From contig JADFZM010000001.1 in the NCBI GenBank assembly GCA_015232535.1, positions 1-35,262 on the forward strand: a DNA stretch of 35,262 bases. The letters are read 5' to 3'. The notes beneath the pieces were generated by a model. The model was not told the DNA's origin. It saw nothing but the letters and a program-made list of their open reading frames with translations, and made no database searches. The DNA comes from Candidatus Omnitrophota bacterium. GTDB taxonomy: Bacteria > Omnitrophota > Gorgyraeia > Zapsychrales > Zapsychraceae. The translations under genes and the position numbers were made by a program. Shown piece after piece: positions 2,687 to 24,560 of the stretch; within the stretch, counting starts at the first letter, position 1, and the number at the start of each line of letters is the position of its first letter.

Positions 2687-3232
2687 TTACTTTCTTTTAG
2701 TATCCCATTTATCCAATACTTTTGATATTTTTGCCTGGACTTTGTCTTTCATCTCGGCATCGACCAAGAGTTCATCGAGAATAGCCTGATGCTCCTCGGC
2801 CATAGATATTATTTCCCTTTGAAGTTCAGCGGTCTTGGCCTCCAGGCGTTTTTTCTCTATAGCGTGGTTAAGCGGATATATGATGCGGTCTTTGTTATCT
2901 ATGGGCTTAAGGATGTAATCAAAGGCCCCTTCTTTTACCGCTTCCTGGCAGGATTCAAGGGTCCCGAAACCGGTAAGGAATATTAGCGGGATATTATACC
3001 CTTTTTCGTTTATGTGCTTCAGTACTTCCAGCCCTGATTCACCGGGCATTTTAAGGTCGCAGATGACGGTTTCTATGTCGGGATGCGCGGATAATTCCTT
3101 TACGGCGCTTTTATAACAATCCGCTTTGTAAGTCGTATAGCCGCAAGCTTCTAAAAGGTCTCCCAAAGCCTCGCGGATGGATTCCTCATCGTCAACTAAA
3201 AGCACGATTCCGTCTGTATTTACCTTTGCCAT
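2687..3232 (-). CDS. Response regulator receiver protein with C-terminal helical extension
   Basis: REC motifs LLVDDEESIRE, VICDLKMPGESG, IFLTGFG, YILKPID. Confidence 0.9.
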   Translation of the reverse strand: MAKVNTDGIVLLVDDEESIREALGDLLEACGYTTYKADCYKSAVKELSAHPDIETVICDLKMPGESGLEVLKHINEKGYNIPLIFLTGFGTLESCQEAVKEGAFDYILKPIDNKDRIIYPLNHAIEKKRLEAKTAELQREIISMAEEHQAILDELLVDAEMKDKVQAKISKVLDKWDTKRK

Positions 3233-3279
3233 AATAATCCTCCGTTAGTTCTTTCTTTTGAAATAATCCAAAGCGATTG

Positions 3280-4491
3280 CTAAGCCAGCAACTGTTGGCT
3301 TAAATCTTTTAGTTTTAGCTCTATTCTGCTTCTTCGGTCATCGTCTCCTGATAAATTATCATCCTGGTTTACCGGCAGTATAAAATAGAACATTTTTCTT
3401 TTATCATCAAGTTTAATAAAATTAATTATTCCCTTGTGGTCTTTGATGATATTACAGCATACGGCTAAGCCTAAGCCGGTGCCTTTTTCCGGGCCTTTTG
3501 TCGTGAAAAATATATCGAAGATCTTTTTCTCCGTTCCGTCTTGCACAGGTTTTCCGTTATCGATGATTCCGGCGGCTAGGCAGTTCTCTTGCGGGACAGC
3601 CAAAGAGAAAACGGTCATCTCACCCCCGACGGCTTGTTTGAAAACATCGTCGATGGCGTCTTTGGCATTGCACAGGAAGTTGATTACAACATCCTGTATC
3701 TCGTAACGGTCAAGCGCTACTTTCGGCAACTCCTCAACAAGCTTCATTTTCAATTGAATATTATGGTCCTTAAGCTGCTGCTCGAAAAGAAAGAGTGAAT
3801 CGGTTATCGGAGTATTAATATTTTCTTCCGCTTTTGAGGCTATTCTTGATTTAGAAAATGTGTTCAGGCGGCGAACTATTGTATTCAATCGGGTGAACTG
3901 AGTTTTCATTTTCTGCATCCGCTCTTTGAGCTTATCGTCAGAATTAATGATCGGATTGGAAAAGAAAGTCTCGATCTGAACAGACAAGGCCATTAAAGGC
4001 TGATTTAACTCATGCGCAACGCCGGCCGACATCTCCCCCATCGCCGACATGCGCGCCGTATGAATAAGCTGCATCTGCAACTTTTTTAATTCATCGTTTA
4101 ATTTTTCCAATTCTTCCTGATGGTGCCACATCAGTATCCTTTGTGACAATATTCCGATTACCTCCCCTTTTTCTTCTACCGGAATATGGCGGAAATGGCT
4201 TGTTTTCATTAAGGATGCAACATCGCTAGGAGAAAGGGTTGATGAGGCCATTACGGGATTTTTGGTCATGAACTCCTTTACGCATTTTTTCTCAAGGCCT
4301 GATTCGCCTAATCGAGGAAGGACTTTTTTAAGTATGTCACGCTCGGTAAATATCCCCTCTACTTTATTGTTATTGATAACCAGGGCCGCTCCGACATTCT
4401 TTTCGTTCATCAATTTAACCGCATTTATGATGTCCTCGTCCTGAGAGATCTTTAATACGTCTTTACGCATCAACTCTTTTAGTTTGTTCAT
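3280..4491 (-). CDS. CBS-pair sensor histidine kinase
   Basis: N-terminal CBS pair (VGAALVINNNKVEGIFTERDIL; HIPVEEKGEVIGILS), H-box AGVAHELNQPLMAL, N-box NFLCNAKDAID, G-box GTGLGLAVC. Confidence 0.92.
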   Translation of the reverse strand: MNKLKELMRKDVLKISQDEDIINAVKLMNEKNVGAALVINNNKVEGIFTERDILKKVLPRLGESGLEKKCVKEFMTKNPVMASSTLSPSDVASLMKTSHFRHIPVEEKGEVIGILSQRILMWHHQEELEKLNDELKKLQMQLIHTARMSAMGEMSAGVAHELNQPLMALSVQIETFFSNPIINSDDKLKERMQKMKTQFTRLNTIVRRLNTFSKSRIASKAEENINTPITDSLFLFEQQLKDHNIQLKMKLVEELPKVALDRYEIQDVVINFLCNAKDAIDDVFKQAVGGEMTVFSLAVPQENCLAAGIIDNGKPVQDGTEKKIFDIFFTTKGPEKGTGLGLAVCCNIIKDHKGIINFIKLDDKRKMFYFILPVNQDDNLSGDDDRRSRIELKLKDLSQQLLA

Positions 4492-4500
4492 GTTTTCCTT

Positions 4501-5571
4501 TTATCCTAGGTCTATCATATTAGCGTTACCGACATAATCGGTAGTCTTTAAATTACCGACAGTGTCTCCTAATGCCAGGATCTTTTTTAAGGTTTCGTTG
4601 ACGCGATCAATCTCTTGTTTTATTTTAAGTATTCTTGGGTAGTTCTGGTCAGTCTCGGGAATCTTCATCAAAAGGATGTGAATATATGAATACGAAGCCA
4701 TCAAAGGCTGGTTCATGTAATGATGGAAAGTATTGATCATTTCCTTAACTGTCTTAATCTCCAAAACCTGATGGTAATGATCCAGCATATTAGTCAAAGA
4801 AAGTATCCCCACTACTTTGCCTTTATCGGTAACAGGTACGTGCCTTATTTTCTTTTCCTTCATCATGGTAACCAATTCCGGCCAGGGTTGGGACACATCC
4901 GCAAAAACAAGAGTTTTCGTCATTACATCCTTGATCGGGATTTCATGAAGGTTAAGCGAACTCCCCTTTGATAAAACCCTGTTCATGGCGTCTCGCTCGG
5001 TAAATATTCCAACCGCATTTTCGCCTTCCATAATTAGGATAGAGCTTATTTTTCGTTCGCTCATCTTCGCGACCGCATCGGCAGCGGTAGCGTCTATATT
5101 TACCGAGATCAAATCTTTCGACATAAAATCTTTGGCTAAAGACATACCCTGCTTGTAATATTCAAGTTCTATGTTTTTCTTTTTTAATCGGAATTTTTCA
5201 ATCGACTGCGAGATAAGGCGAATAAGTTCTTTGGAGTCGTCGATCGGCTTCATTATATAATCATAGGCGCCGCTTTTTAAAGCGTCGCGGCATGTTTCAA
5301 CCGTTCCTTGGCCGGTTAAGATTATAAAAGGGATTACGCTTCCTTTTTCTTTAAGGTAATCTAAAAGCTCCAGGCCGTTTTCATTCGGAAGAGACAGATC
5401 GCAGATAATTGTCTCTATGGCTTTGCTTTGCTCGATGACGGATTTTGCGGCAGATAAATTATTTGCAATATGTACGCAAAACCCTTCAATCTCAAGGGCT
5501 TCCTTTAGGGCATCTAAAAGAGCGGGCTCATCATCCACCATTAAAACGGTTCCTCTTAAATCATTCGGCAT
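4501..5571 (-). CDS. Receiver + CBS pair + DHp-like helix protein without HATPase domain
   Basis: REC (MVDDEPALLDALKEAL, CDLSLPNENG, LTGQGT, YIMKPID), CBS pair (SSILIMEGENAVGIFTERDAM; HVPVTDKGKVVGILS), C-terminal FHHYMNQPLMASYSYIHILL; ends without N/G boxes. Confidence 0.88.
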   Translation of the reverse strand: MPNDLRGTVLMVDDEPALLDALKEALEIEGFCVHIANNLSAAKSVIEQSKAIETIICDLSLPNENGLELLDYLKEKGSVIPFIILTGQGTVETCRDALKSGAYDYIMKPIDDSKELIRLISQSIEKFRLKKKNIELEYYKQGMSLAKDFMSKDLISVNIDATAADAVAKMSERKISSILIMEGENAVGIFTERDAMNRVLSKGSSLNLHEIPIKDVMTKTLVFADVSQPWPELVTMMKEKKIRHVPVTDKGKVVGILSLTNMLDHYHQVLEIKTVKEMINTFHHYMNQPLMASYSYIHILLMKIPETDQNYPRILKIKQEIDRVNETLKKILALGDTVGNLKTTDYVGNANMIDLG

Positions 5572-5584
5572 TGGAAAGCCCTTT

Positions 5585-6232
5585 TTATTTTGTATCTAAG
5601 TCTATCATACCCGCGCCGCCTACATAATTGACTGTCTTTACTTTTTCTAAAGTTTGGATCTTTTTAAGGATATCGTTTATTTTATCGAGCTCTTTTTTTA
5701 TCTTTGCCAGTTCTTTATATCCGATGTCTTGGTCGCTTAGTTTTGAATGCAGTATATCCAAATAGGTATAAATTACCATTAGCGGCTGGTTCATGTTGTG
5801 ATTATAGGTGGTAATCATATCCTGCAAAGTTTTAAGGCGCTCGGTTTCTCTGACGTTAAGATGCGCTTTAATTCTGGCTTTGACCTCGGCCGGATTTATG
5901 GGTTTGGTAATATAATCTTCCGCGCCGCATTCAAAACCTTTTACTTTTTCGTCGGTCGCCGTAAGCGCTGTTATGAATAGAACAGGGATATGCCGGTATT
6001 TTTTATCTGCCTTTAACCTGCGGCAAACCTCGTACCCGTCTATATCCGGCATTTGAATGTCTAAGAGTATGATGTCGGGCATTTCCTTGCCGACAGTTTC
6101 TATGGCAGCACCTCCGCAGTCTGCCTCAAGCAAAGAATAGTCCGAATTGGTGTCTCCTAAGACAGCTTTTAACAATTCGCGGTTAGGCATTGTATCATCA
6201 ACTATCAGAACTTTTTTTGGCGGTTCGCTCAT
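5585..6232 (-). CDS. Receiver + DHp-like helix protein without HATPase domain
   Basis: REC (LIVDDTMPNRELLKAVL, ILLDIQMPDIDGYEV, FITALT, YITKPI) followed by YNHNMNQPLMVIYTYLDIL and tail YVGGAGMIDLDTK. Confidence 0.9.
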   Translation of the reverse strand: MSEPPKKVLIVDDTMPNRELLKAVLGDTNSDYSLLEADCGGAAIETVGKEMPDIILLDIQMPDIDGYEVCRRLKADKKYRHIPVLFITALTATDEKVKGFECGAEDYITKPINPAEVKARIKAHLNVRETERLKTLQDMITTYNHNMNQPLMVIYTYLDILHSKLSDQDIGYKELAKIKKELDKINDILKKIQTLEKVKTVNYVGGAGMIDLDTK

Positions 6233-6248
6233 CTTTTCCTCTTACTCT

Positions 6249-6671
6249 TTATTCAAACAATATTTTAGATAAACTATTATAGATGGCTTTATTGATGTCT
6301 TTTATAGAAATTATGCCGATTAAGGCCTTGTTCTCAACAACAGGAGCGTGGCGGAAATTCATTTCGTGCATTATCCTGAGGGCTTCGAAAACTGTCGCAT
6401 CCGACTTAAAGGTGACTATCTTCGGAGTTAAGACCTCGGTTATTTTAGTTTCCGAGGGGTTTTTGCCGCAGGAAGTGACCTTATTTAAATTATCCCTCTC
6501 GGAAAAAATACCGACCACCTGCTTATCTTTATTAACTATTACAATCGCCCCGACGTTTAAGGCCGCCATTTTCTTGGCCGCGTCCATGACGGTCTCATTA
6601 TCGGTTACTGTCAGGACTTTTCTTATCAGGATATCGCCTACGGTCAATTTTGAGAGGTTTTCTAAGGACAT
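6249..6671 (-). CDS. Stand-alone CBS-domain pair protein
   Basis: Two CBS repeats: NVGAIVIVNKDKQVVGIFSERDNLNKV and FRHAPVVENKALIGIISIKDINKAI. Confidence 0.92.
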   Translation of the reverse strand: MSLENLSKLTVGDILIRKVLTVTDNETVMDAAKKMAALNVGAIVIVNKDKQVVGIFSERDNLNKVTSCGKNPSETKITEVLTPKIVTFKSDATVFEALRIMHEMNFRHAPVVENKALIGIISIKDINKAIYNSLSKILFE

Positions 6672-8235: not shown

Positions 8236-9633
8236 TTAACTGCTCTCTTGCTGCGTATTAATTGCGTGAAATAGGCAGCCTCGAGTCACGCTGGTAAAAG
8301 GCTCGTCGGATTTCTTGATTTCTCCGACAGTAATTCCCAGGCGGACGTTTTTAATTTCTTCTTTAACAACCTCCAAGAAACCTCCGACCAAAGACGAGCC
8401 TCCGGCGAAAACTATATCAACCGGGTCTCTGAATTGGGGAGTTTCTTTGGCGTTCCCGAATACTTTAGCCATGCTTTCGAGGAAATACCTTATATAATTG
8501 CGATAATAAATGGTCAGGGCTTCTTCTTCTCTGGTTTTAGGGCCCAATAAATTCATGCCCTGCTCTTTTATTGTAGTTACCTGGCTTACGGGAATGTTAA
8601 GAACGGTTGCCGCGCTTTTGTCTATCCAATCCCCGCCTCTGGTGATGGAAAAGGACAAAGCCGGCACCGAGCGGAAAGACGCGCAGACGTTCACCATACC
8701 GCCTCCGCAGGAAACTCCTATTCCCGTAAAATCCTTGTATTCAAGTTCCGAGAGCACAACAGCGTAGCCTTCATCGATAACAACCGGGTTAAAGCCCAGA
8801 GCTCGAAGAATGCCTTCAAATACCCCCCGGTGATAAATAGTATCCTGGTCGCGGTCAATGGGTGAGGCCGGAACGGAAAAACAACAAATCTCATTCTCGT
8901 TCCTGGGAGACCAGAGGATATTCTGGACGATAAGCTTGATCATCGGGATTGATTCAGCCTCCGACGGGTTCAATATCCCCATGCTCATCGAGCGCTGTAC
9001 CTCGCGGTTGAATATATTAGCCAAACTAAGCGCCAGATTGCCCAGGACATAAAGATTACTGCCCAAAGAACCGTATTTAATCCTTAGTTTTTCAAGGAGT
9101 TCTTTTGTAGCCTGATCGGCCCGCACCGAAAGAAAAGCATTGCGCTCAGTTTTTACAAATACACGTGACCCGTCTACTTCACGCGAGGCAACCAAATAAG
9201 CAGTTCCCAGGTCAAGGCCAACTCCGAGCCTTTCCGGGGCTTTCTTTTCCTGTTGTTCTCCTGATGAAGGAAGGTTAACAGAGGTTGTTTTCTCCTCCGA
9301 CTGCACTTCGGCGATTTCTTTAGAATCGGGTATGATCTGATCCTCAACTGCCTCAGATTCAGTTTCCTTCGAAACCGCTATTGTTTCAGGCGCGAGCTTT
9401 TTGCGCAGGTATTGATTGATTACTTTAAGCTTATCGCGCATTTCCTCGAGCGAAATGTTCTTTACTTCTTCGATAACGGCTGGTTCAGGTTTCCCGTGTT
9501 TATCGCGGTGAAGCCGGGCGCGGGGTGAAGATAGGCTTTTTACTCTTGTGTTTAGGTTCCTTAGCTTGGAACGTACATCTTCAAGTTCTTGATTTAGCGC
9601 CGGATCTATTGGCTTAGGCATAAGAATTAACAA
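8236..9633 (-). CDS. Actin-like ATPase (MamK/Mad28-like) with about 135-aa N-terminal helical/acidic extension
   Basis: GVGLDLGTAYL (phosphate-1), IGVSCGGGMVNVCASF, VFAGGSSLVGGF (adenosine motif); clear paralogue of the 9732-10781 product. Confidence 0.82.
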   Translation of the reverse strand: MLILMPKPIDPALNQELEDVRSKLRNLNTRVKSLSSPRARLHRDKHGKPEPAVIEEVKNISLEEMRDKLKVINQYLRKKLAPETIAVSKETESEAVEDQIIPDSKEIAEVQSEEKTTSVNLPSSGEQQEKKAPERLGVGLDLGTAYLVASREVDGSRVFVKTERNAFLSVRADQATKELLEKLRIKYGSLGSNLYVLGNLALSLANIFNREVQRSMSMGILNPSEAESIPMIKLIVQNILWSPRNENEICCFSVPASPIDRDQDTIYHRGVFEGILRALGFNPVVIDEGYAVVLSELEYKDFTGIGVSCGGGMVNVCASFRSVPALSFSITRGGDWIDKSAATVLNIPVSQVTTIKEQGMNLLGPKTREEEALTIYYRNYIRYFLESMAKVFGNAKETPQFRDPVDIVFAGGSSLVGGFLEVVKEEIKNVRLGITVGEIKKSDEPFTSVTRGCLFHAINTQQESS

Positions 9634-9731: not shown

Positions 9732-10781
9732 TTACTTTGAGCTCTTTTTGCTTTGACCTTTTGTGTCTTCTTTAACTTCTTCCGCGACAATTTCCTCGTC
9801 GTTCAAAGCCGCTAAGAGGCATCCTTTTGCCGTCGCGTTTAAAGGCTCTTCCGCCAGCCTTACTTTACTTACCGGTATCGGGAATTCAATTTTCTTTAAT
9901 TCATCCTCTACTACTTCAACGAATCCGCCGATTAAGGCTGTGCCACCGGAGCAAACAATTTCAACAGGGTCGGGGAAATGAGGGATATTCTCCGCTGATT
10001 CAAACTTGGCTTTAATATTCGCTAACGTATAGCTTATCAGGTTGCGGTAATAGATAACTATCGCCTCATGTTCGCGGTTTTTTGGGTTTTTAATATTTAC
10101 CCCTTTTTCTTTGATGGCCGCCGCCCTTGTTTGGTTTATGCCAAGGACGTGGGCAACGTTTTTGTCAATCCAGTCACCGGAACGGCTGGTGGAAAAAGCT
10201 ACTGCCGGAATCGTTTTGTAAGAAACGCAGACATTGACCATTCCTCCGCCGAAAGAAATGCCGATGCCGGTAAAGTCCTGTTCGGCGAGTTCGCTGAAAA
10301 CTACCGCATGGCCTTCGTTCATTTCTTTTCCTACATAACCGAGATTTTTAAGAGCTCCGAGTATGATCCCGGAGTGGTAAACAATGTTGAAGTCGGCGTC
10401 AACGGGATTAGCCGGTACAGAATAATAACAAGGTATGCCGGGTTCTTCCGCCTTACCTATAACCGCTTCTACTAAAAGCCCGAAAATCGGAGCGGCATCA
10501 GCCTCATCGGGGCTCATAACGCCGGCTTTCATCGGGCGGCGGATTACTTTATTCATGATATTAGCCAATTCAAAAGCCGATTCGCCCAAAACATATACTT
10601 TCTTGCCGAATTCGACATATTGGACTTTTTGTTGCAGTAACATTTTCTTAGTGAAAGGGTTTACGTCGACATCGAGAAAACAATGGCGCATGAGCTTAAT
10701 TTTAATATTGCCCTTGTCGTCCTGAACGGCTCCCGCCAAATTCATTGTCCCGACGTCCAATCCTCTTACTTTTCTAGCCAT
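9732..10781 (-). CDS. Actin-like ATPase (MamK/Mad28-like)
   Basis: RGLDVGTMNLAG, GISFGGGMVNVCVSY, VCSGGTALIGGFVEV; compact 349 aa actin fold next to ParA and coiled-coil genes. Confidence 0.82.
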   Translation of the reverse strand: MARKVRGLDVGTMNLAGAVQDDKGNIKIKLMRHCFLDVDVNPFTKKMLLQQKVQYVEFGKKVYVLGESAFELANIMNKVIRRPMKAGVMSPDEADAAPIFGLLVEAVIGKAEEPGIPCYYSVPANPVDADFNIVYHSGIILGALKNLGYVGKEMNEGHAVVFSELAEQDFTGIGISFGGGMVNVCVSYKTIPAVAFSTSRSGDWIDKNVAHVLGINQTRAAAIKEKGVNIKNPKNREHEAIVIYYRNLISYTLANIKAKFESAENIPHFPDPVEIVCSGGTALIGGFVEVVEDELKKIEFPIPVSKVRLAEEPLNATAKGCLLAALNDEEIVAEEVKEDTKGQSKKSSK

Positions 10782-10813: not shown

Positions 10814-11605
10814 TTATTTACCCGCAGCGACTGTCTGTTTTTTATAGTAATGGCCGCGAGCTTTAGCTCTTGTATCGGCCAACATCAAGCGGATCTCATC
10901 CAGGCTTTCTTTAGCCTGCTGTAATTCGCGCTTATAGCCTTCTTTTTCCTCCATATTAATCCTGATCTCATGGGCGGAATCTTCCACCTTTTTCTGCAGT
11001 TCTTCTTTTTCTTCTTCAAGCATATAAATCTGGTTCTGGAAATTTTGAATGGTAGAGTTGGCGCTGTTGAGCTCAAGCTCGATTTGTTCTATCCTTGTAT
11101 CGCGCCCTTTTACGTCTTTTGTAAGTTGTTCCATCCTTTTACCTAAGGCATCTTTTTCCTTGTTGTTTTCATCCAGCTCATCTTCCATATTACGGAGTTT
11201 TTCGACCGATTCGAGTCGCTCATTCTCGAGGAATTCCAAATCGGAATTCAATTCTTCCTGGGAAACAAGGACTTCCTGGAGCTCTTTTACCTTAGCTTCT
11301 AGAGAGGCGGTTTTCTGCTCGGATTTTTCCAGCTCGTTCTCGAGTTTAGCGATCTCCCTTTCCTGGGTATCTTTGATGCTGAAAGCGGCTTCGAGTTGTT
11401 TCTCCAAGTCGGTTATGATCTCAAAAACGCTGGCCTTCTCCTCATCCGGCGACATGAAATATTTTTGACGGGAGACTTCTTTTTTGACGGCGGCCAACTG
11501 TTTTTTTATCGGCTCTTTTTCTACTGTTTCATGAGCGCTGGCGGTTGCCTTCTTTAAGGTAGATTGAAGCAACGGATTATCAATTCTTCTCATTGTTTTT
11601 GACAT
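10814..11605 (-). CDS. Coiled-coil protein (SMC-like heptads)
   Basis: Long Glu/Lys/Leu heptad region (ITDLEKQLEAAFSIKDTQEREIAKLENELEKSEQKTASLEAKVKELQE...). Confidence 0.78.
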   Translation of the reverse strand: MSKTMRRIDNPLLQSTLKKATASAHETVEKEPIKKQLAAVKKEVSRQKYFMSPDEEKASVFEIITDLEKQLEAAFSIKDTQEREIAKLENELEKSEQKTASLEAKVKELQEVLVSQEELNSDLEFLENERLESVEKLRNMEDELDENNKEKDALGKRMEQLTKDVKGRDTRIEQIELELNSANSTIQNFQNQIYMLEEEKEELQKKVEDSAHEIRINMEEKEGYKRELQQAKESLDEIRLMLADTRAKARGHYYKKQTVAAGK

Positions 11606-11639: not shown

Positions 11640-12443
11640 TTAGGATTTCTTTTTATTCTTTTTTAATGCCGTGCGCTTCAATACTTCTTTGGCTAAAGAA
11701 GCATATGTGGTAGCGCCTTTTGAAACCTTGTCGTATTTATAAACCGGAAGATGGGCGTTGTGAGCTTCCTCCAGCTTGATATTTTCGGGGATTATGGTAT
11801 TAAAAACTTTTTCGCCAAAATAATTTTTTATTGCGTTTTTTGCCTCATTGGTAACTACTCTGTCGCGAAAACGGGTGATAAGCACTCCTAGCAGGTTTAT
11901 TTCGGATTCCAGGCCTTGCCTAACCTTGATGACTATTTCTTCAAGCAGTTTTATCCCCTTTAACGAGAAAAAGTCAGGGCAGATCGGTACTAAAAGTTCG
12001 TTGCAGGCTGTAAGCGCGTTAACGGTCAAAAGGCCTAAAGAGGGCGGAGCGTCAACGATCATAAAATCATATTTTAGCTGGCGGACGTAATGGAAAAGGA
12101 TTTTTTCCCGGCCGATCTGCTCGGATATCCTCATCGAAACTCCGGATAAGCCGATATCACTCGGGACTACATCTATCCCGAAGGCGGTTGAATGCTGAAT
12201 AACCTCTTGAACTTTCATTCCTCCGACCATAACGTCATAAATGGTCCTTTCGAAATTCGATTGGCCAAAAATAGATGATGTAGATGAATTCTGCGGGTCC
12301 ATGTCTATCAAAAGGACTTTTTGTTTCAGGCGGGCAAGTTCCGCTGCCAAATTAACAGAGGTGGTTGTTTTAGCAACTCCGCCTTTTTGATTGGCGACAA
12401 CTATTCTTCTCATAAGGGCATCTTTCTTGCTTATACTCGGCAA
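11640..12443 (-). CDS. ParA/Soj-type ATPase
   Basis: Deviant Walker A KGGVAKTT, LLIDMDPQNSST, MIVDAPPSLGLLTVNAL. Confidence 0.93.
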   Translation of the reverse strand: MPSISKKDALMRRIVVANQKGGVAKTTTSVNLAAELARLKQKVLLIDMDPQNSSTSSIFGQSNFERTIYDVMVGGMKVQEVIQHSTAFGIDVVPSDIGLSGVSMRISEQIGREKILFHYVRQLKYDFMIVDAPPSLGLLTVNALTACNELLVPICPDFFSLKGIKLLEEIVIKVRQGLESEINLLGVLITRFRDRVVTNEAKNAIKNYFGEKVFNTIIPENIKLEEAHNAHLPVYKYDKVSKGATTYASLAKEVLKRTALKKNKKKS

Positions 12444-12516: not shown

Positions 12517-12711
12517 TTACGAAGCGCTGGCGTAACCTTCTTTGAACGATTCTGCCGCACCTTCGAACAATTTTACAGTGTTTTGCTTAATATTGGAAAC
12601 AGAATTCTTAATATCTTTAAGCACCTTCGGATTCTTCTTTTTGAGGATTTTGTAGCCTACGACCCCGATAACCGCGATTCCAGCTATAGTTAATAAAGAC
12701 TTTTCAAACAT
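12517..12711 (-). CDS. Small YtxH-like protein with N-terminal TM helix
   Basis: MFEKSLLTIAGIAVIGVVGYKILKKKNPKVLKDIKNSVSNIKQNTVKLFEGAAESFKEGY; TM helix plus amphipathic Lys-rich helix. Confidence 0.72.
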   Translation of the reverse strand: MFEKSLLTIAGIAVIGVVGYKILKKKNPKVLKDIKNSVSNIKQNTVKLFEGAAESFKEGYASAS

Positions 12712-13793
12712 AATCCCCCTCCTTGTTCTTCTTCAGTGTTTTCTTCGATTTTTATAGATTGATTCTTTTTCTGCATTCCAAAGGTGGCTTGATTGTTTAT
12801 CCACCAGAACCTCCAGGCTTCGATGGCTTCTTCTTTATTCTTTTGGGAGCCTTTGGCATGGAATTCAAAGTTATGTTTTGTTATTTTTCTAAGGGCGGCA
12901 TCCGCCTCTTTTTGTATTGTTTGTTCAGCGTCGGTCAATAGAGAGATCAGCGCGGAAACTGCCTGATGCGCGCGGAAAGCCCCGCACATCTGGATTGCGG
13001 ATTTGCGGATATTGTCGTCAACATCATGCAGAAGTTTCATAATAAAAGGAATGCCGCGGTCGCCGTAATTCCAACAGATCAGGTTTAAGGCCTGTTTTCT
13101 TACCTCGGGTGATGGGTCCTTGATAGCCGAGGATAATATCTCAAAGGCCTCCTCATCCTTGTATTTGGAAATAGCCCTGAGGGCCGCCAGGCGCATATGC
13201 GGGTTATCGTCTTTTAGATAGACTATGAAAAAGTCTTTGTTTAAATCAGCTTTCTCATTAAGAGTAGATAGGGCGTTAAGGATCTCGATTAGCTTCAGCT
13301 GATCGTTTTCAGTCGCCAATAATTTCTTAAGGATAGCAATGGCGACGGGTTTTGATAATTTCTTTATCTGGTCTAAGGCTTCGGAGCGCAATTTGGCTAA
13401 TTTTGAGTCAAAATCCCGGACATAAATATCGGCGCGGTGAGCTTCGTCGGCATCCTGAAAAGGTATGTTTTTTAATTCTGTTGATTTACTTGCCACAGCG
13501 CTGCTTGCCGGTTTATCTATTTGGGCTTGGAATGATAAGAGGATAGGATTGGCCTCTTCTTTCTTCTCCGTGGCGAATGAGGTTGTTACTATCTTATCCG
13601 ATCTCAAAAATGAACTGGGCGATTTTTCCGGTTCAGGAGACTTGTAGGACACTTTTGGTTTTTCTGTTATCCGGGGTTTTAGAAAAGGGGCGATAGTAAA
13701 GAAAGTCTTTTCAACAACTCCGGTGCATTCACCCAAAAAACGTATCGTATCATAGGTTATGGCGACGATAGGACCGCGATTTTCCACTGTCAT
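12690..13793 (-). CDS. HEAT-repeat protein
   Basis: Tandem HEAT-like repeats (NPHMRLAALRAISKYKDEEAFEILSSAIKDPSPEVRKQALNLICWNYGD...DDNIRKSAIQMCGAF); C-terminal EEAIEAWRFWWINNQ. Confidence 0.88.
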   Translation of the reverse strand: MTVENRGPIVAITYDTIRFLGECTGVVEKTFFTIAPFLKPRITEKPKVSYKSPEPEKSPSSFLRSDKIVTTSFATEKKEEANPILLSFQAQIDKPASSAVASKSTELKNIPFQDADEAHRADIYVRDFDSKLAKLRSEALDQIKKLSKPVAIAILKKLLATENDQLKLIEILNALSTLNEKADLNKDFFIVYLKDDNPHMRLAALRAISKYKDEEAFEILSSAIKDPSPEVRKQALNLICWNYGDRGIPFIMKLLHDVDDNIRKSAIQMCGAFRAHQAVSALISLLTDAEQTIQKEADAALRKITKHNFEFHAKGSQKNKEEAIEAWRFWWINNQATFGMQKKNQSIKIEENTEEEQGGGLCLKSLY

Positions 13794-13820
13794 AAGTCTC
13801 CTTTTTTAAAATTCAAAATT

Positions 13821-13848
13821 ATTATTACATGTATAACCTTTTAGTCAA
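13821..13848 (-). promoter_or_regulatory. Sigma70-like promoter upstream of the 367-aa HEAT gene
   Basis: Minus strand: TTGACT (13848-13843), 16-nt spacer, extended -10 TGt-AATAAT (13826-13821), about 30 nt before ATG at 13793. Confidence 0.5.
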
Positions 13849-13903
13849 GAAAAATAAAGGGAATATTTAAATATTCTGATTTTTTAACTATTTTTTCTAA
13901 AAG

Positions 13904-14074
13904 TTATTTGGCTAATTTCTCTTTTTTTGATTTTACGTATTCAATAAGTTCTGAGATCCTATCGACTTCGGCGGATAAGTTTTTGCTTTCCTCTTGATAT
14001 AAGAATTTCAACTTACCATCTTTATGCCATTCGTAAAATGTTTTTCCTAAGCTCAAATATTCTCTGTTTTCCAT
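13904..14074 (-). CDS. 56-aa stand-alone copy of the short helical domain shared across the HEAT-gene array
   Basis: Start reassigned from 14161 to 14074 (AAAGGATAAAAATG); MENREYLSLGKTFYEWHKDGKLKFLYQEESKNLSAEVDRISELIEYVKSKKEKLAK. Confidence 0.7.
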   Translation of the reverse strand: MENREYLSLGKTFYEWHKDGKLKFLYQEESKNLSAEVDRISELIEYVKSKKEKLAK

Positions 14075-14076
14075 TT

Positions 14077-14421
14077 TTATCCTTTGAACTGGCTGATCAA
14101 GCCTTGGCCTGCGTTTAAAGTTTTTCTGGAAAGTCTTCCGATTTCGTAGGATACATCGCAAAGCACTGTTGTAATCGTTATCCCTTCAAAGTATTTTTTT
14201 GTGTCGTTGGCGATGCTTTTAACCATTAAAACGGTTTCCTCTTTAAGTTTTTTCGGCCGATCTTTTTTCGCTTCACTGCTTTCTATCCAGGCGTCTGCTA
14301 ATCGGTCAGTGCCTTGCGAAAAATTGTTTTTCAAAGAAGAGCAGGTTTTTTTTAAAGCCCCGATAGTGCGAGTCTTTTTCTTTTTAGCAACCGCGCCGGG
14401 GTCAATTTGAAGTTTTTCCAT
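14077..14421 (-). CDS. Basic helical protein of unknown function (114 aa)
   Basis: Lys-rich ORF packed between HEAT gene and 56-aa gene; in the same relative position as the other basic genes of the array. Confidence 0.7.
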   Translation of the reverse strand: MEKLQIDPGAVAKKKKTRTIGALKKTCSSLKNNFSQGTDRLADAWIESSEAKKDRPKKLKEETVLMVKSIANDTKKYFEGITITTVLCDVSYEIGRLSRKTLNAGQGLISQFKG

Positions 14422-14437
14422 TTAATTTCCCTGTTTT

Positions 14438-16444
14438 TTATTTCGCTCTATTTGCTATCTTTGCGGAAACATTGCTTTTTCCCAAAGGCTTAGGTATTGG
14501 TTTTTTTTGTCCTGAGACAGGTTTTAGGTATTTATCTTTTACCGATTTCTCGGTTTCTTTGGCATTCCTTAAAAAATGCGGATTAGTTTGATTGTCTTTC
14601 CACATTTGTTTCCAGCGCTTAATAGCTTCGTTTCTGTCTTCTATCGGGCCCATATATTTATACCCTAAATTAGTTCCGATTATCGAGGTCAAGGCTTCTA
14701 TAGCTTCTTTCCTTATTTTCATGTCATCGCTTTCCAACTTCGGAATAAGATGGATAAAGGCAAAGCGGGTGCGGCTTTTCCCTAGTTTACGGATAGCGAT
14801 GCGCGAGACAGCCTCGTCGGAATCATTTATCAGCTTTACGATAGCCGATATCTCGGATGTATTGCCGGCGTGATTAAGGCAATTGGCGACCAGGCGGCGG
14901 ATGGAGCTGTCGGGGTCGTTTACCGCCACAAGCATGGCTTCTTTAGCGTCAGGATGTTCGATTTTCCTTAAGCCCATTATGCCGTTAAGTCGTAACATCG
15001 AATCCGGGTCGTCAAGGAAGTTGCGGTAAACATCGATAAGTATCGGGTCATCGATTCTTCCTAATATATCAATAAATGATTTCTTCGCTTCAAAAGGTAT
15101 TGTTTGGAAGTAATTGCTGATAAAATCGGATAACACCTCCGGGGAAGTGTTTATCAGGGTATTTAATACCTCCATTTTATCTTCCTTGGATGTCTTTTCG
15201 CTGCTTAACAAGCGGGCGGCGGATTCCAGAAGCGCGTAATCTACGTTGTCTTCGCTTACTTCTTTTTCTTCCATCTCTTTGGACGGTTCTGCTTCGTGCC
15301 CGGGAGCGATGGTTAACTGCTCGACATCCTCTTCCTCCTTCTTAAAAAGCTGGGTACCTAAAGAAGGCGTTTCAGCTACGGCAACGGATGTTTTTTCCAA
15401 AGATTCGCGGACGATAATTTTTTCGGCTATTGCGGTATTTCTTTCTAAAAGGTCATTTTGCCGACGGATATCTTTTTCGTAGGCATACTTAACCTCTTCA
15501 AAAAGGCCTTTGGCGTGGCCGATTAATGTGTCGATATTGGAAGCAATAGCCTTTATCTTGTTTTGTGATTCCTCGAGGAATTCTTTTTCTATCGGTAAAA
15601 GACGCAGGTCTGCTTCGGTTTTTATTTTATCCAGAGCGGTTTTCTTTTTATCCATGGTTTTAGTGATTACCTCCATTAATTGGTCGAGCGACAGTCCGAT
15701 AGTTTCTTTTAACTCTTTAAATTTCGCCAGCTTTTCGTCGGATTGGGGTTTATCGATAAAATTTAAAGAAGATTTGACTAAGGCCGCGAGCCAGTCCATA
15801 TCGTTATAAAGAAGCCCGAGGTCCTGTTTCATAGCGTATACGGCGACGTTTAGCTTTGTGTAAGGCTCTATCAGGCCTCTTTTGTTCAGAGGCTGCGTGT
15901 TTTCTTCAAAGACGGTGATTTTTGCTTCGGGTTTTGGCAAATTTTCTTCAGCTGGCTTTGCTTTGAGTTTCGCGGGTTTTATTATCGGCTTAGTCCCGTC
16001 TTTGAATAAATTTGTCGGTATAACTGATTTTTCTTCTTTAGGTGCCGCTTCCTGTTCAACAACCGGCTTTTTGGATATTTTCTGGGATAGGAGCTTTGCA
16101 ATGTCCAAAAGAGATTTGTTTTCTTTCAAAACAGGATTAGTATCCTCGGCCTTGGGCATCGGCTTGTTTTCTTTAGTTTCTTTCGGTTCTTTTTTTATAT
16201 CTTTTTTTGGAGTCTTATCTTTTTCGGTAAGTTTATCCGCGGAAGGTTCCGAGCTTTTTTCCGGCCCGGTCCCGGCGAATAAATCCTGCGCTTTTTTTTC
16301 CAAATCGTCAAATTCGGGATTAAACAAATAATGGATGTTTTCTTTTGTTACATTATCATGGACAAATTTGCCGAAATAGGCATAGAGATTTTCCAGTTGT
16401 TCGTCGCATTTCTTTAGCTCTAACTCGTTTTTATTTTGCGCCAT
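14438..16444 (-). CDS. Large HEAT-repeat protein with N-terminal short helical domain and charged linker
   Basis: N-terminus LENLYAYFGKFVHDNVTKENIHYLFNPEFDDLEKKAQDL; Lys/Glu/Pro-rich linker; C-terminal HEAT repeats (DPDSMLRLNGIMGLRKIEHPDAKEAMLVAVNDPDSSIRRLVANCLNHAGN...), then NEAIKRWKQMWKDNQ. Confidence 0.88.
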   Translation of the reverse strand: MAQNKNELELKKCDEQLENLYAYFGKFVHDNVTKENIHYLFNPEFDDLEKKAQDLFAGTGPEKSSEPSADKLTEKDKTPKKDIKKEPKETKENKPMPKAEDTNPVLKENKSLLDIAKLLSQKISKKPVVEQEAAPKEEKSVIPTNLFKDGTKPIIKPAKLKAKPAEENLPKPEAKITVFEENTQPLNKRGLIEPYTKLNVAVYAMKQDLGLLYNDMDWLAALVKSSLNFIDKPQSDEKLAKFKELKETIGLSLDQLMEVITKTMDKKKTALDKIKTEADLRLLPIEKEFLEESQNKIKAIASNIDTLIGHAKGLFEEVKYAYEKDIRRQNDLLERNTAIAEKIIVRESLEKTSVAVAETPSLGTQLFKKEEEDVEQLTIAPGHEAEPSKEMEEKEVSEDNVDYALLESAARLLSSEKTSKEDKMEVLNTLINTSPEVLSDFISNYFQTIPFEAKKSFIDILGRIDDPILIDVYRNFLDDPDSMLRLNGIMGLRKIEHPDAKEAMLVAVNDPDSSIRRLVANCLNHAGNTSEISAIVKLINDSDEAVSRIAIRKLGKSRTRFAFIHLIPKLESDDMKIRKEAIEALTSIIGTNLGYKYMGPIEDRNEAIKRWKQMWKDNQTNPHFLRNAKETEKSVKDKYLKPVSGQKKPIPKPLGKSNVSAKIANRAK

Positions 16445-16493
16445 TTAATCTCCTTAAGGAATCAACTGCGGCTTCGATTGGAACATTAGGCTT

Positions 16494-16973
16494 TTACGAA
16501 TCCTTTGATTCTGTTTGATTAGCCTCCGAAGCCTTCTCTATCTCGCTAATCTCCTGGCCTATTTTTTCAATCTCTTTGTCAATATCTTTCCCCTCCATCT
16601 CGGAGAAAGTGTTGCCGGATTCCAATTCGAGGTCCTTTATGGATGTTTCGTTCTTTTCGGGTTGTTTTGTTTCGCCGTCAAGTATGTTCTCTACTCTTTT
16701 TGCGGTAGGCACATGGTCTTTCTTAAGGGATTGGAATCCGTTTTGGAATGATCTGGTAATATCGGAAACGCCGGTTTTGATCCCGCCGGTCAGTTTTGAA
16801 GAGGATGATTTTGTTTTATGCCAGGCTTTTTTTGATAAGTCTGTCACTTTATCCAGCTTAACTCTTTTTGAGATTTTCCCTGCCCGCGCCACTGCTTGTC
16901 CTGCGGAAAAAAGGGCTTTTTGCACTAGAGTTTTCTTTTTAGGAGTGTTTTTTAAGTTCTTATTTTGAATCAT
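16494..16973 (-). CDS. Basic amphipathic-helix protein
   Basis: Likely start MIQNKNLKN (ORF open to 17042); Lys-rich, LVQKALFSAGQAVARAGKISKRVKL...GIKTGVSDITRSFQNGFQSLKKD, acidic C-terminus. Confidence 0.7.
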   Translation of the reverse strand: MIQNKNLKNTPKKKTLVQKALFSAGQAVARAGKISKRVKLDKVTDLSKKAWHKTKSSSSKLTGGIKTGVSDITRSFQNGFQSLKKDHVPTAKRVENILDGETKQPEKNETSIKDLELESGNTFSEMEGKDIDKEIEKIGQEISEIEKASEANQTESKDS

Positions 16974-17790
16974 TATTTTTGCTCCTGTTTGATTTGATTT
17001 GCTTTTTATTTGCCGGAGGGTTGCTTGTTTTTTTCTCTTCATCCCTTGAATCGCTTTTTATATTTTCTTCTGTGCTTGAGCCTTGGGGGATAAGCGTGAA
17101 CAGTTCTTCCAGGCATTTTTGCACGTGGCTATCAGTGTCATTTTTCAGGCGGGAAACCGCTTTGACGCCTTCTTCTGCGCAATGTATCCCTAGGCATGTT
17201 GCCGCCATGCCTCTTACATATGGGTCGGGGTCATCTAGGAGCGGGGCAACATGGTCAAAGCATTTTTCCTTTAAAAGATTGCTTAACCCTTTGATTGAAG
17301 CTGTTCTGACGGTGCTGGCAATGTCTTTAAGCCCCTCAATGAATTTTTCTTCATCGGCAACCGGGCGGTTATCATCTTCTTTTGCTTCTGAATCGCTTAA
17401 CAGCTCCGCTATCTCGGATATCTGTTTTTGCTCCAAAGAGTCAACTTGAGCCAAGGCGTTCTTATCCGAAGGTGATTTTGCTTCTTTGGACTTTACGTCG
17501 GATTTCTTCGCAATCTCGGGATGTTTCTCTCCTATCAGCTCTTTAGGGACATCAAGTTTTTTCGGGGAAAATGGAACAATGGCTTCTTTGTTCTTTTTAA
17601 GGTTAACATAACTGGCTTCGAGGCCGTTGAGCAGGGAAAAAATTTTTTTGATCGTATTTTGCTCGCCTACAGTGTCCGGTGAATAAAAAAACCTGACCTG
17701 TTCGGCTTTATTGAGGTTGTATATAAGTTTACCTAAAAGGAATTTCGATTTATTGCTTTGTGCTTTTAGGTCTGATAATTTAACTTCCAT
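16960..17790 (-). CDS. HEAT-repeat protein with N-terminal short helical domain
   Basis: N-terminus SKFLLGKLIYNLNKAEQVRFFYSPDTVGEQNTIKKIFSLLNGLEASYVNLKK; C-terminal HEAT repeats (VRTASIKGLSNLLKEKCFDHVAPLLDDPDPYVRGMAATCLGIH). Confidence 0.85.
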   Translation of the reverse strand: MEVKLSDLKAQSNKSKFLLGKLIYNLNKAEQVRFFYSPDTVGEQNTIKKIFSLLNGLEASYVNLKKNKEAIVPFSPKKLDVPKELIGEKHPEIAKKSDVKSKEAKSPSDKNALAQVDSLEQKQISEIAELLSDSEAKEDDNRPVADEEKFIEGLKDIASTVRTASIKGLSNLLKEKCFDHVAPLLDDPDPYVRGMAATCLGIHCAEEGVKAVSRLKNDTDSHVQKCLEELFTLIPQGSSTEENIKSDSRDEEKKTSNPPANKKQIKSNRSKNNDSK

Positions 17791-17815
17791 GGAATCTTTC
17801 GGTTTATGAGTAGTT

Positions 17816-18316
17816 TTATAGGCCGCCTAAGACCAGCTCTTCTTTGTTTTCGGTTTTATCCGGCTCTTTAACGGCTGTTTTTTTTGTTTTGGCTTTCGAT
17901 TTCTTCGGTGACGCAGCCGGTTTCTCTTCTTTGAATGCTGTCTTAACTGTTTTATCAGCTGTTAGGTGCTGTATTTTCTTTTTTCTGTTTGCATTGGGCT
18001 TTTTGGGAGATTTTACGGGTGTCTCTTTCTTTTCTTCTTTGATTGATTCTGCCTTATGGGCAATCGGGGGGATTTCTTCCGATATTGACTTGACACCTTC
18101 ATCAAACGACTCTTTCATCTCCTTGAAGCTGTGCTTTACCGATTCTTCGGCTTTATGCACTACGCTTTGAGTTTTGGAAACAGCCTTTTTCCAGCTTTTT
18201 GATTGGGTAAAACTGCCTAGGCCGGCTATTTTACCGCAAACAATGCCGGTTCCGTAAAATATATTTTGCCATATTTGCGTCGGTATGTCTTTTTTTTGCT
18301 TTGTCTCGTTTACCAT
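17816..18316 (-). CDS. Lys-rich amphipathic-helix protein
   Basis: WQNIFYGTGIVCGKIAGLGSFTQSKSWKKAVSKTQSVVHKAEESVKHSFKEMKESFDEG then a very Lys/Pro-rich tail. Confidence 0.72.
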   Translation of the reverse strand: MVNETKQKKDIPTQIWQNIFYGTGIVCGKIAGLGSFTQSKSWKKAVSKTQSVVHKAEESVKHSFKEMKESFDEGVKSISEEIPPIAHKAESIKEEKKETPVKSPKKPNANRKKKIQHLTADKTVKTAFKEEKPAASPKKSKAKTKKTAVKEPDKTENKEELVLGGL

Positions 18317-18363
18317 GTTTTTCTCCCTTGTTATCTATGCAAAAGCGGATTTGTTATTATAGC

Positions 18364-18576
18364 TTAATCTTTGTAAAGTTCTTCAACTTTCTTAACGCGA
18401 TTTTGTAAATGATTTATCAATCGGCATAACTTTGCTACCTCTTTCTCTTTATCAACCGATTCCGAGGTATACAAAACACGTATAGCCTGAGAATTTATCA
18501 GGCGGTACATTGTCTCGCCTAATAGAAACAATAATTTTTTCTTTGATTCTTCAAGCCCCTCTAATGTTTGCGGCAT
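18364..18576 (-). CDS. 70-aa stand-alone copy of the short helical domain
   Basis: KKKLLFLLGETMYRLINSQAIRVLYTSESVDKEKEVAKLCRLINHLQNRVKKVEELYKD. Confidence 0.72.
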   Translation of the reverse strand: MPQTLEGLEESKKKLLFLLGETMYRLINSQAIRVLYTSESVDKEKEVAKLCRLINHLQNRVKKVEELYKD

Positions 18577-23343: not shown

Positions 23344-23688
23344 TTATAGATCGTAAAGCATTTCACGGCAATCAGGGGGAAGTTTGAGCATACCCGAGTC
23401 GCGCTCAACCCGGGCAATCATCTCTTTGATCATCCCTTTAAAATCCTCTTTTAGCTCGTGTTTATCCGGGCCGGGCAGTTTGTATTTAACGGCCATACCC
23501 ATTATCTTGGTTGTCTCGGAAAAAGAAGCTTTATCGCAGATTTTACGGATATCTTCCTTAAGGATCGTTTCTATATCCAGCTTCTTTAACTCTTTCATTA
23601 AGGGCGAGGTTTTATCCAAATAACGCATGCTCTTTTTCGCTTCTTCAGTGAGGACTTCGGCCATTTTATTGCGCAATGTTTGGATCAT
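23344..23688 (-). CDS. Uncharacterised small helical protein
   Basis: 114-aa ORF overlapping the upstream EcsC stop by a few bases. Confidence 0.7.
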   Translation of the reverse strand: MIQTLRNKMAEVLTEEAKKSMRYLDKTSPLMKELKKLDIETILKEDIRKICDKASFSETTKIMGMAVKYKLPGPDKHELKEDFKGMIKEMIARVERDSGMLKLPPDCREMLYDL

Positions 23689-24560
23689 TTCTTGGAGCCT
23701 TCTTTTTTTTCGATCAAAAAGCGTTTTCTGTAAAACATGTAGGAATAAATTGATGTTTCTTTCACGAAATAATAGTTGAGTACCGTACCGACCGCTATCC
23801 CTAGAAATAAAGCTTCGCGGAATATATGTTTCTTAAACAGCCCTCTGACAATGCTATGGGCAAAAGATAAGGTGTTTTTCTTGCTCGCTAAAACTCCCGA
23901 CGCCCGTTTAAATTTTTGCTTCGCTAAATCCCGTATTAAGCAATCAATTTTCTTTATTTGTTTTTCCTGCTCATGTCCGGAGGCAATTGTTATGCTAAAA
24001 ACCCTTAAGGCAAACTCTTTATTCTCGTCAGTGTCAGGGCTGTATCCGTATGCCGCGCCGGTCTGGAAGATCAATTTTAAGCTCTGCGTTATTATAAGCG
24101 GCAGGTCAACAAGAATCGAAGCTATCCCTGCAGTGCTTAATCCGAGCGATTGTACTGTTGTGTAAAGAACGTTCTTCCCGAAGAAACTTTTCGCGAGCAC
24201 ATCTTTGTACTCCAAAGGGACTTCTTTGAGATCGGCAAGTTTATTTAGCGGAATCCCGCCTTTTTTGGCTATTGCCAATACCGATTTCTCAAGGGCAAAT
24301 TTGCGCGAGATCTTCTGCAGGTCGAAAATTACTTTAGCGACAGGCAAAGTTGCTTTATCGATCCACTTCTTAGGGATTACAATATCTGTCAGCTCATCAA
24401 GAGGAGAAAATGCCAAATTTATTGCTGCCGGAGCAATTCCCGTTCGCAGTATTCTTGATTGCCAGCGATTGATTTCCCTTAAGGAATTTTCCTCGGTATT
24501 TAGAAGCAATTTATTAAATATATATGTATATATTCCTTTTATTTTGACCCATTCTAACAC
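23685..24560 (-). CDS. EcsC-family protein
   Basis: EcsC-like sequence (SLREINRWQSRILRTGIAPAAINLAFSPLDELTDIVIPKKWIDKAT..., VQSLGLSTAGIASILVDLPLIITQSLKLIFQTGAAYGYSPDTDENKEFALRVFSI). Confidence 0.8.
   Translation of the reverse strand: MLEWVKIKGIYTYIFNKLLLNTEENSLREINRWQSRILRTGIAPAAINLAFSPLDELTDIVIPKKWIDKATLPVAKVIFDLQKISRKFALEKSVLAIAKKGGIPLNKLADLKEVPLEYKDVLAKSFFGKNVLYTTVQSLGLSTAGIASILVDLPLIITQSLKLIFQTGAAYGYSPDTDENKEFALRVFSITIASGHEQEKQIKKIDCLIRDLAKQKFKRASGVLASKKNTLSFAHSIVRGLFKKHIFREALFLGIAVGTVLNYYFVKETSIYSYMFYRKRFLIEKKEGSKK

Follow-up and report, generated by a model that had tools for sequence, protein, structure and literature searches.

What is the role of a row of genes for HEAT-repeat, short helical and small basic proteins that lies between iron genes and actin genes in a deep-branching magnetotactic phylum? 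This question is raised by a locus of Candidatus Omnitrophota bacterium (assembly GCA_015232535.1, contig JADFZM010000001.1). The window, by which we mean the whole analyzed stretch of 35,262 nucleotides (nt), makes up 35 kb of a 113-kb contig in a genome of 2.2 Mb that is 83% complete. Nine of its genes form an array that runs into genes for a ParA ATPase, a coiled-coil protein, and two actin-like proteins. We read the array most readily as a counterpart of the Mad23/25/26/28 magnetosome-chain machinery that is enlarged, specific to the lineage, and supplemented by ParA, and we put at roughly 60% the chance that it acts as the adaptor/scaffold layer of the magnetosome-organizing machinery in magnetotactic Omnitrophota. 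By this analogy, the array probably belongs to the apparatus by which magnetosomes are linked and positioned.

The genetic basis of magnetosome chain assembly is known for Magnetospirillum and, since 2025, for Desulfovibrio magneticus RS-1; for Omnitrophota, no genetics was found in the literature searched. The RS-1 HEAT protein Mad23 has been proposed to join magnetosomes into subchains and shows a strong two-hybrid interaction with the coiled-coil protein Mad25, and the actin Mad28 determines where the chain is located (PMC12748827). In strain FSS-1, mad17, mad30, mad23, mad25, mad26, and mad28 are listed in an order comparable to that of the window (PMC7951924), mad17 and mad30 being homologs of feoB and feoA (PMC9376291). 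The array shares with Mad23-type systems its HEAT repeats and its location in a magnetosome cluster beside coiled-coil and actin-like genes. The window set thus has the kinds of parts known from RS-1 in comparable order, and it is for this reason that we read it as a putative adaptor/scaffold layer. The HEAT/coiled-coil/actin module itself is already known and the array is an enlarged form of it, of which no description was found in the open-licence literature searched, supplementary gene tables excluded. A defined and conserved candidate gene set for magnetosome organization in Omnitrophota can now be named, which includes a short hairpin domain that is unmatched in Pfam and a motif that recurs in the basic partners.

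The array and its magnetosome context

The array is flanked by FeoB/DtxR on one side and by ParA, coiled-coil, and two actin genes on the other. Pfam searches of the window identified a magnetochrome protein, cation diffusion facilitators, a PDZ-CitMHS transporter, TauE, FeoB, and a DtxR/FeoA protein. NCBIfam models revealed relatives of MamB, MamM, and MamN in the window and of MamE, MamP, MamQ, MamA, MamB, and MamM in the 27 kb that follow on the contig, all scoring under the curated equivalog cut-offs, which we take to reflect the deep lineage. Judged by these matches, the array sits in a magnetosome gene cluster of an Omnitrophota genome. An EcsC-family protein (Pfam, 2e-31) is also encoded in this cluster (window 23685–24560).

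Co-occurrence was analyzed in 384 genomes sampled from across the Omnitrophota, with the last basic gene of the array, bas4, serving as the array marker at E < 1e-20; two more bas4 matches, at 4e-4 and 8e-4, were counted as noise. The marker was present in 11 of the 384 genomes, the magnetochrome domain in 12, and both in nine (Fisher p = 2.6e-14, kinship uncorrected). Carriers span at least four families (f1, f7, f17, and f54), and in the family to which the window itself belongs, most listed members have neither. Three genomes contain the magnetochrome domain alone. One of these, G351, has the array according to a short-domain search, and in G021 and G397 the contigs break off at the array region. 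In G051, the magnetochrome match is at cut-off level only and a lone bas4-like gene occurs outside any array. A sequence-only reading of this locus had proposed a magnetosome role from the neighboring genes, and a link to magnetosomes is supported by the nine of 11 array carriers that have the magnetochrome domain together with conserved synteny.

The conserved order consists of a domain-HEAT gene and a basic gene, a domain-central-HEAT gene and a basic gene, and a separate domain gene, HEAT gene, and basic gene, followed by ParA, a coiled-coil gene, and two actin genes. More than 10 Omnitrophota genomes have this order, complete or partial, and it recurs across several families. The closest named relatives by actin gene are Omnitrophota metagenome-assembled genomes, and many of the relatives' bin names (nDJH, nHGR, nXX, nW3) follow the style of magnetically enriched genomes (PMC7602337).

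The two flanks of the array bear on a different explanation, namely that the HEAT and basic proteins form a scaffold for protein sorting or biomineralization, whose task is to bring further proteins of the magnetosome to its membrane and not to position magnetosomes. Mad23 has been suggested to act in sorting on account of its HEAT domain (PMC9840458), and the array directly follows FeoB, FecR, and DtxR/FeoA genes. However, the array's other flank is consistently joined to ParA, coiled-coil, and two actin genes, which speaks for a cytoskeletal role, and the RS-1 mad23 mutant has dispersed magnetosomes with an unchanged crystal number (PMC12748827). We consider a sorting scaffold unlikely and favor a layer that links and positions magnetosomes.

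Modules, parts, and duplication

Nearly all genes of the window are carried on the minus strand, and the nine open reading frames (ORFs) of the array were all found there, where the sequence-only reading had placed them. In transcription order, the genes are A70, bas1, B276, bas2, C668, bas3, D56, D367, and bas4, followed by ParA, a coiled-coil gene, two actin genes, and further coiled-coil genes. The intergenic gaps in the array are short or overlapping (−22 to +110 nt), and a purine-rich, ribosome-binding-like sequence is present at most gene starts. No minus-strand terminator-like site was found inside the array, and one promoter-like match, by consensus only, lies in the 110-nt gap 5′ of D367.

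The part common to all four modules is a short domain, whose copies are homologous by profile-profile comparison (hhalign probabilities of 97% for A-B, 95% for AB-D, 82% for AB-C, and 86% for D-C), as the sequence-only reading had suspected. Iterated hmmsearch with profiles built from relatives joined the A, B, and D copies at E < ~1e-15 and matched the C-type N termini of relatives at 8e-11 to 1e-4. The domain stands alone in A70 (18364..18576), is followed by HEAT repeats in B276 (16960..17790), heads C668 (14438..16444), and stands alone again in D56. For the latter, the start was refined to the ATG at 14074, inside a longer TTG ORF, which places the 56-amino acid gene at 13904..14074. The AlphaFold2 model of A70 is a two-helix hairpin (predicted local distance difference test score of 90), and the model of the C668 N terminus is a helix-loop-helix in the same order at lower confidence; the two folds modeled are thus alike. 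No Pfam family matched the domain above cut-off, and Foldseek found no significant match to it in the PDB. Its weak PDB sequence matches, at ~1e-3, are GCN4 coiled-coil fusions. A kinship of the domain with the basic proteins or the central region of C668 was rejected (hhalign probabilities <2%). In nDJH15bin13, D56 (L033:896–1003) may be broken because it is cut by an in-frame TAG.

The HEAT domains of B276, C668, and D367 (12690..13793) are homologous as well (hhalign 97–99.6%). Pfam HEAT_2 matches the three proteins, at 2e-21, 7e-15, and 4e-7, with D367 the strongest (2.2e-21) and B276 the weakest (3.5e-7), and in the alignment a conserved W-rich cap ends the HEAT region of the C and D types. 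The earlier description of C668 as a domain-HEAT protein of 668 amino acids stands with an addition, as there is a long, disordered linker in front of its HEAT repeats, together with a distinct helical region in the center (residues 188–351). Foldseek matches of C668 are alphaRep/HEAT proteins. A relationship between the D367 N terminus and the basic proteins was rejected (hhalign probability <2%).

The basic partners are less uniform. Bas1 (17816..18316, isoelectric point 9.7) has an SFxxGxxS motif, seen in the alignment with relatives, and a lysine-rich tail, and bas2 is its paralog (E ~1e-31 to the bas1 model). Of the 182 amino acids first assigned to bas2, 159 are likelier; the ORF is present and extends to 17042, and a GGAG precedes the ATG at 16973 (16494..16973). 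Bas3 (14077..14421), conserved in 11 loci, contains an SYxxG segment that resembles the one in bas1, with a weak profile link (10%). Bas4 (12517..12711) has a hydrophobic N-terminal segment and, in the alignment, an SFxEGY motif of the SFxxGxxS type that it has in common with bas1 and bas2. A single family for all basic proteins was rejected on the basis of hhalign (bas12-bas3, 10%; bas12-bas4, 45% over 28 columns; bas3-bas4, 22%). The suggestion that they are one repeated part therefore did not hold, since relatedness is demonstrable for only two of the four, bas1 and bas2. Their amphipathic stretch and lysine-rich composition recall the granule-distribution proteins PhaF/AlgP in composition only, as no domain homology to these was detected, and a Pfam search of the basic proteins of the window and of ten from relatives gave no phasin or histone H1-like domain.

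Some variants were observed among the basic genes of relatives. Most relatives carry an additional basic gene of ~110 amino acids between bas4 and ParA (e.g., L038:8030–8404 and L131:10229–10582) that the window lacks; some of these proteins have a C/C/C/H motif and a CFxxG-like segment at the end. A bas1/2 relative at L035:2730–3656 is enlarged by internal repeats of ~30 amino acids of the amphipathic segment.

The repeated layout had been attributed to duplication of a two-part module, and this is supported for one step. Most relatives have three modules, domain-HEAT with bas12, domain-central-HEAT with bas3, and domain plus HEAT with bas4, and the first of these is single in most relatives and doubled in the window (A70 + bas1 versus B276 + bas2), in L031 (nDJH15bin6), and in G006. 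The doubling belongs to the window's clade. Copy A of the doubled module has lost its HEAT repeats, and in G006 so has copy B. In a tree, copy A/bas1 clusters with the unduplicated copies found in relatives and the branch of copy B/bas2 is long, a topology that fits duplication with unequal divergence. The tree gives no date for the event, as it does not tell a recent duplication with fast divergence from an older one with losses. Other rearrangements include an extra bas4 copy in L034 (L034:1868–2071), directly 3′ of D56 and between it and D367. Genome G010 has two array loci on separate contigs (C11 and C16; L016 and L136); upstream of the second are MamB/MamM-like and magnetochrome genes, and this genome possibly holds two magnetosome clusters. 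In G015, the AB and C modules appeared to be absent; this was wrong, as the same contig holds them at a distance of ~40 kb.

A natural fusion in nDJH6bin18 (L152:347–1390) joins the two conserved bas2-type basic motifs, part of a C domain, and a C-type HEAT region. The fusion is consistent with the basic and HEAT parts acting jointly, as indirect support. It should be noted that a simple deletion between neighboring genes would give the same fusion, so its evidential weight lies in the fused frame having been kept open.

ParA and the Volactin-type actins

The gene that follows the array encodes a ParA/Soj-type ATPase (11640..12443, minus strand, as are the following three genes). It has a deviant Walker A motif, KGGVAKTT, with the signature lysine, matches AAA_31 at 7.9e-50, and its PDB sequence matches are ParA (1e-51) and Soj (1e-46). 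Because the closest relatives of this ATPase are Soj/ParA partition ATPases and the basic proteins could bind DNA, ParA and the basic proteins could be regarded as a plasmid or DNA-partition system that is linked to the unrelated HEAT genes by chance. However, the basic genes and the HEAT/short-domain genes are interleaved in conserved order, a natural basic-HEAT fusion exists, and no ParB-like gene was found beside ParA among the window ORFs or by Pfam, and we consider a partition system highly improbable.

A coiled-coil protein, CC1 (10814..11605), is kept 3′ of ParA and is followed by the actin-like proteins A (9732..10781) and B (8236..9633), the latter with an N-terminal extension. Both belong to the Pfam Volactin family (PF25216, 1.3e-77 and 3e-76). 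Outside Omnitrophota, their nearest matches are archaeal, from haloarchaea, Methanosarcinaceae, Archaeoglobaceae, and one Thermoplasmata, at ~36–44% identity. The idea that array parts accompany archaeal Volactins was rejected; across 65 loci (L046–L110), the array models matched only two ParA-like ORFs. A second, divergent actin pair, with no array, is located at about 64.3–66.4 kb of the same contig (C111). None of the four actins matched the NCBIfam MamK model above its cut-off; the best match of the window pair had E = 1.7e-4 and 20.7 bits versus a cut-off of 400, and the second pair had no MamK match at 1e-6. After the actin and coiled-coil genes, the window contains a block of CBS-domain, response-regulator, and histidine-kinase-like genes (2687–6671), relatives of which are similarly placed in other Omnitrophota loci. 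This block could tie the chain machinery to signalling.

A putative scaffold and its known counterparts

By analogy with the RS-1 proteins Mad23/25/26/28, we infer that the array proteins form a complex, bind membrane or polyanions, and contribute to positioning. The HEAT proteins (B, C, and D) and the short hairpin domains would form a linking scaffold, which the small basic proteins would tether to the magnetosome membrane and/or to a polyanionic surface, either the nucleoid or an acidic cytoskeletal surface. Attachment would occur through the likely membrane segment of bas4 and the amphipathic helices and lysine-rich tails of bas1 and bas2, with the conserved SYxTG-like and SFxxGxxS motifs taking part. 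The coiled-coil and two actin-like proteins would provide a filament track and ParA would contribute nucleotide-driven spacing. ParA may spread magnetosomes along the nucleoid, as McdA distributes carboxysomes (PMC13052382), with the basic proteins as candidate partners only.

Several observations weigh against the scaffold reading. HEAT proteins and coiled coils are interaction modules of a generic kind, and the likeness to Mad23 is one of gene kinds and order. In nDJH6bin18, no recognizable intact short domain was found at E ≤ 0.01, and the domain seems dispensable there because the HEAT and basic parts persist. In addition, two genomes have the array with no magnetosome genes detected, nor a close MamN or MamB, namely G343 (86% complete, 11-kb array contig) and G141 (84%, 17 kb). 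The G141 array also lacks iron genes upstream, and this genome may be a genuine exception to the array-magnetosome link.

The same two genomes would suit an assembly that is merely carried in the magnetosome cluster and serves signalling or the cytoskeleton in general, for example by coupling actin/ParA positioning to the downstream two-component genes. CBS, response-regulator, and kinase-like genes come after the actin/coiled-coil genes in this window and several relatives, and an actin pair stands apart from the array in this genome. On the other hand, the array tracks the magnetochrome domain across the phylum, and the exceptions are these two only, both incomplete bins with short array contigs. 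We regard such an assembly as quite unlikely and retain the adaptor/scaffold layer as the preferred reading. A more far-reaching proposal, which is tentative and which we doubt more than we believe, is that a membrane-bounded magnetic organelle is positioned jointly by ParA and an archaeal-type (Volactin) actin, with paired HEAT/hairpin-domain and basic adaptors as a new kind of linker, distinct from the MamK and McdAB systems. A ParA gene beside the actins raises the question of whether bacteria distribute membrane-bounded magnetic organelles by ParA.

Among known systems, the Mad23/Mad25/Mad26/Mad28 subchain module of RS-1 and other deep-branching magnetotactic bacteria likewise has HEAT, coiled-coil, and actin-like genes together in a magnetosome cluster near FeoB-type genes. 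The window differs in having four short-domain genes and three HEAT proteins, where the Mad system has one HEAT protein, and in having a separate short hairpin domain, four small basic partners, a Soj-type ParA, and two Volactin-type actins with no MamK above cut-off. With the McdAB system of carboxysomes, it shares a ParA-family ATPase encoded beside proteins that may be organelle adaptors. In contrast to that system, the window has no recognizable McdB, the nearest solved structures of its ATPase are ParA/Soj, and actin genes are also present. Finally, the MamK/MamJ/MamY magnetoskeleton of Magnetospirillum also combines actin-like filament proteins and adaptors in a magnetosome gene cluster, whereas the actins of the window are of the Volactin type, distant from MamK, and the candidate adaptors are HEAT, hairpin-domain, and basic proteins.

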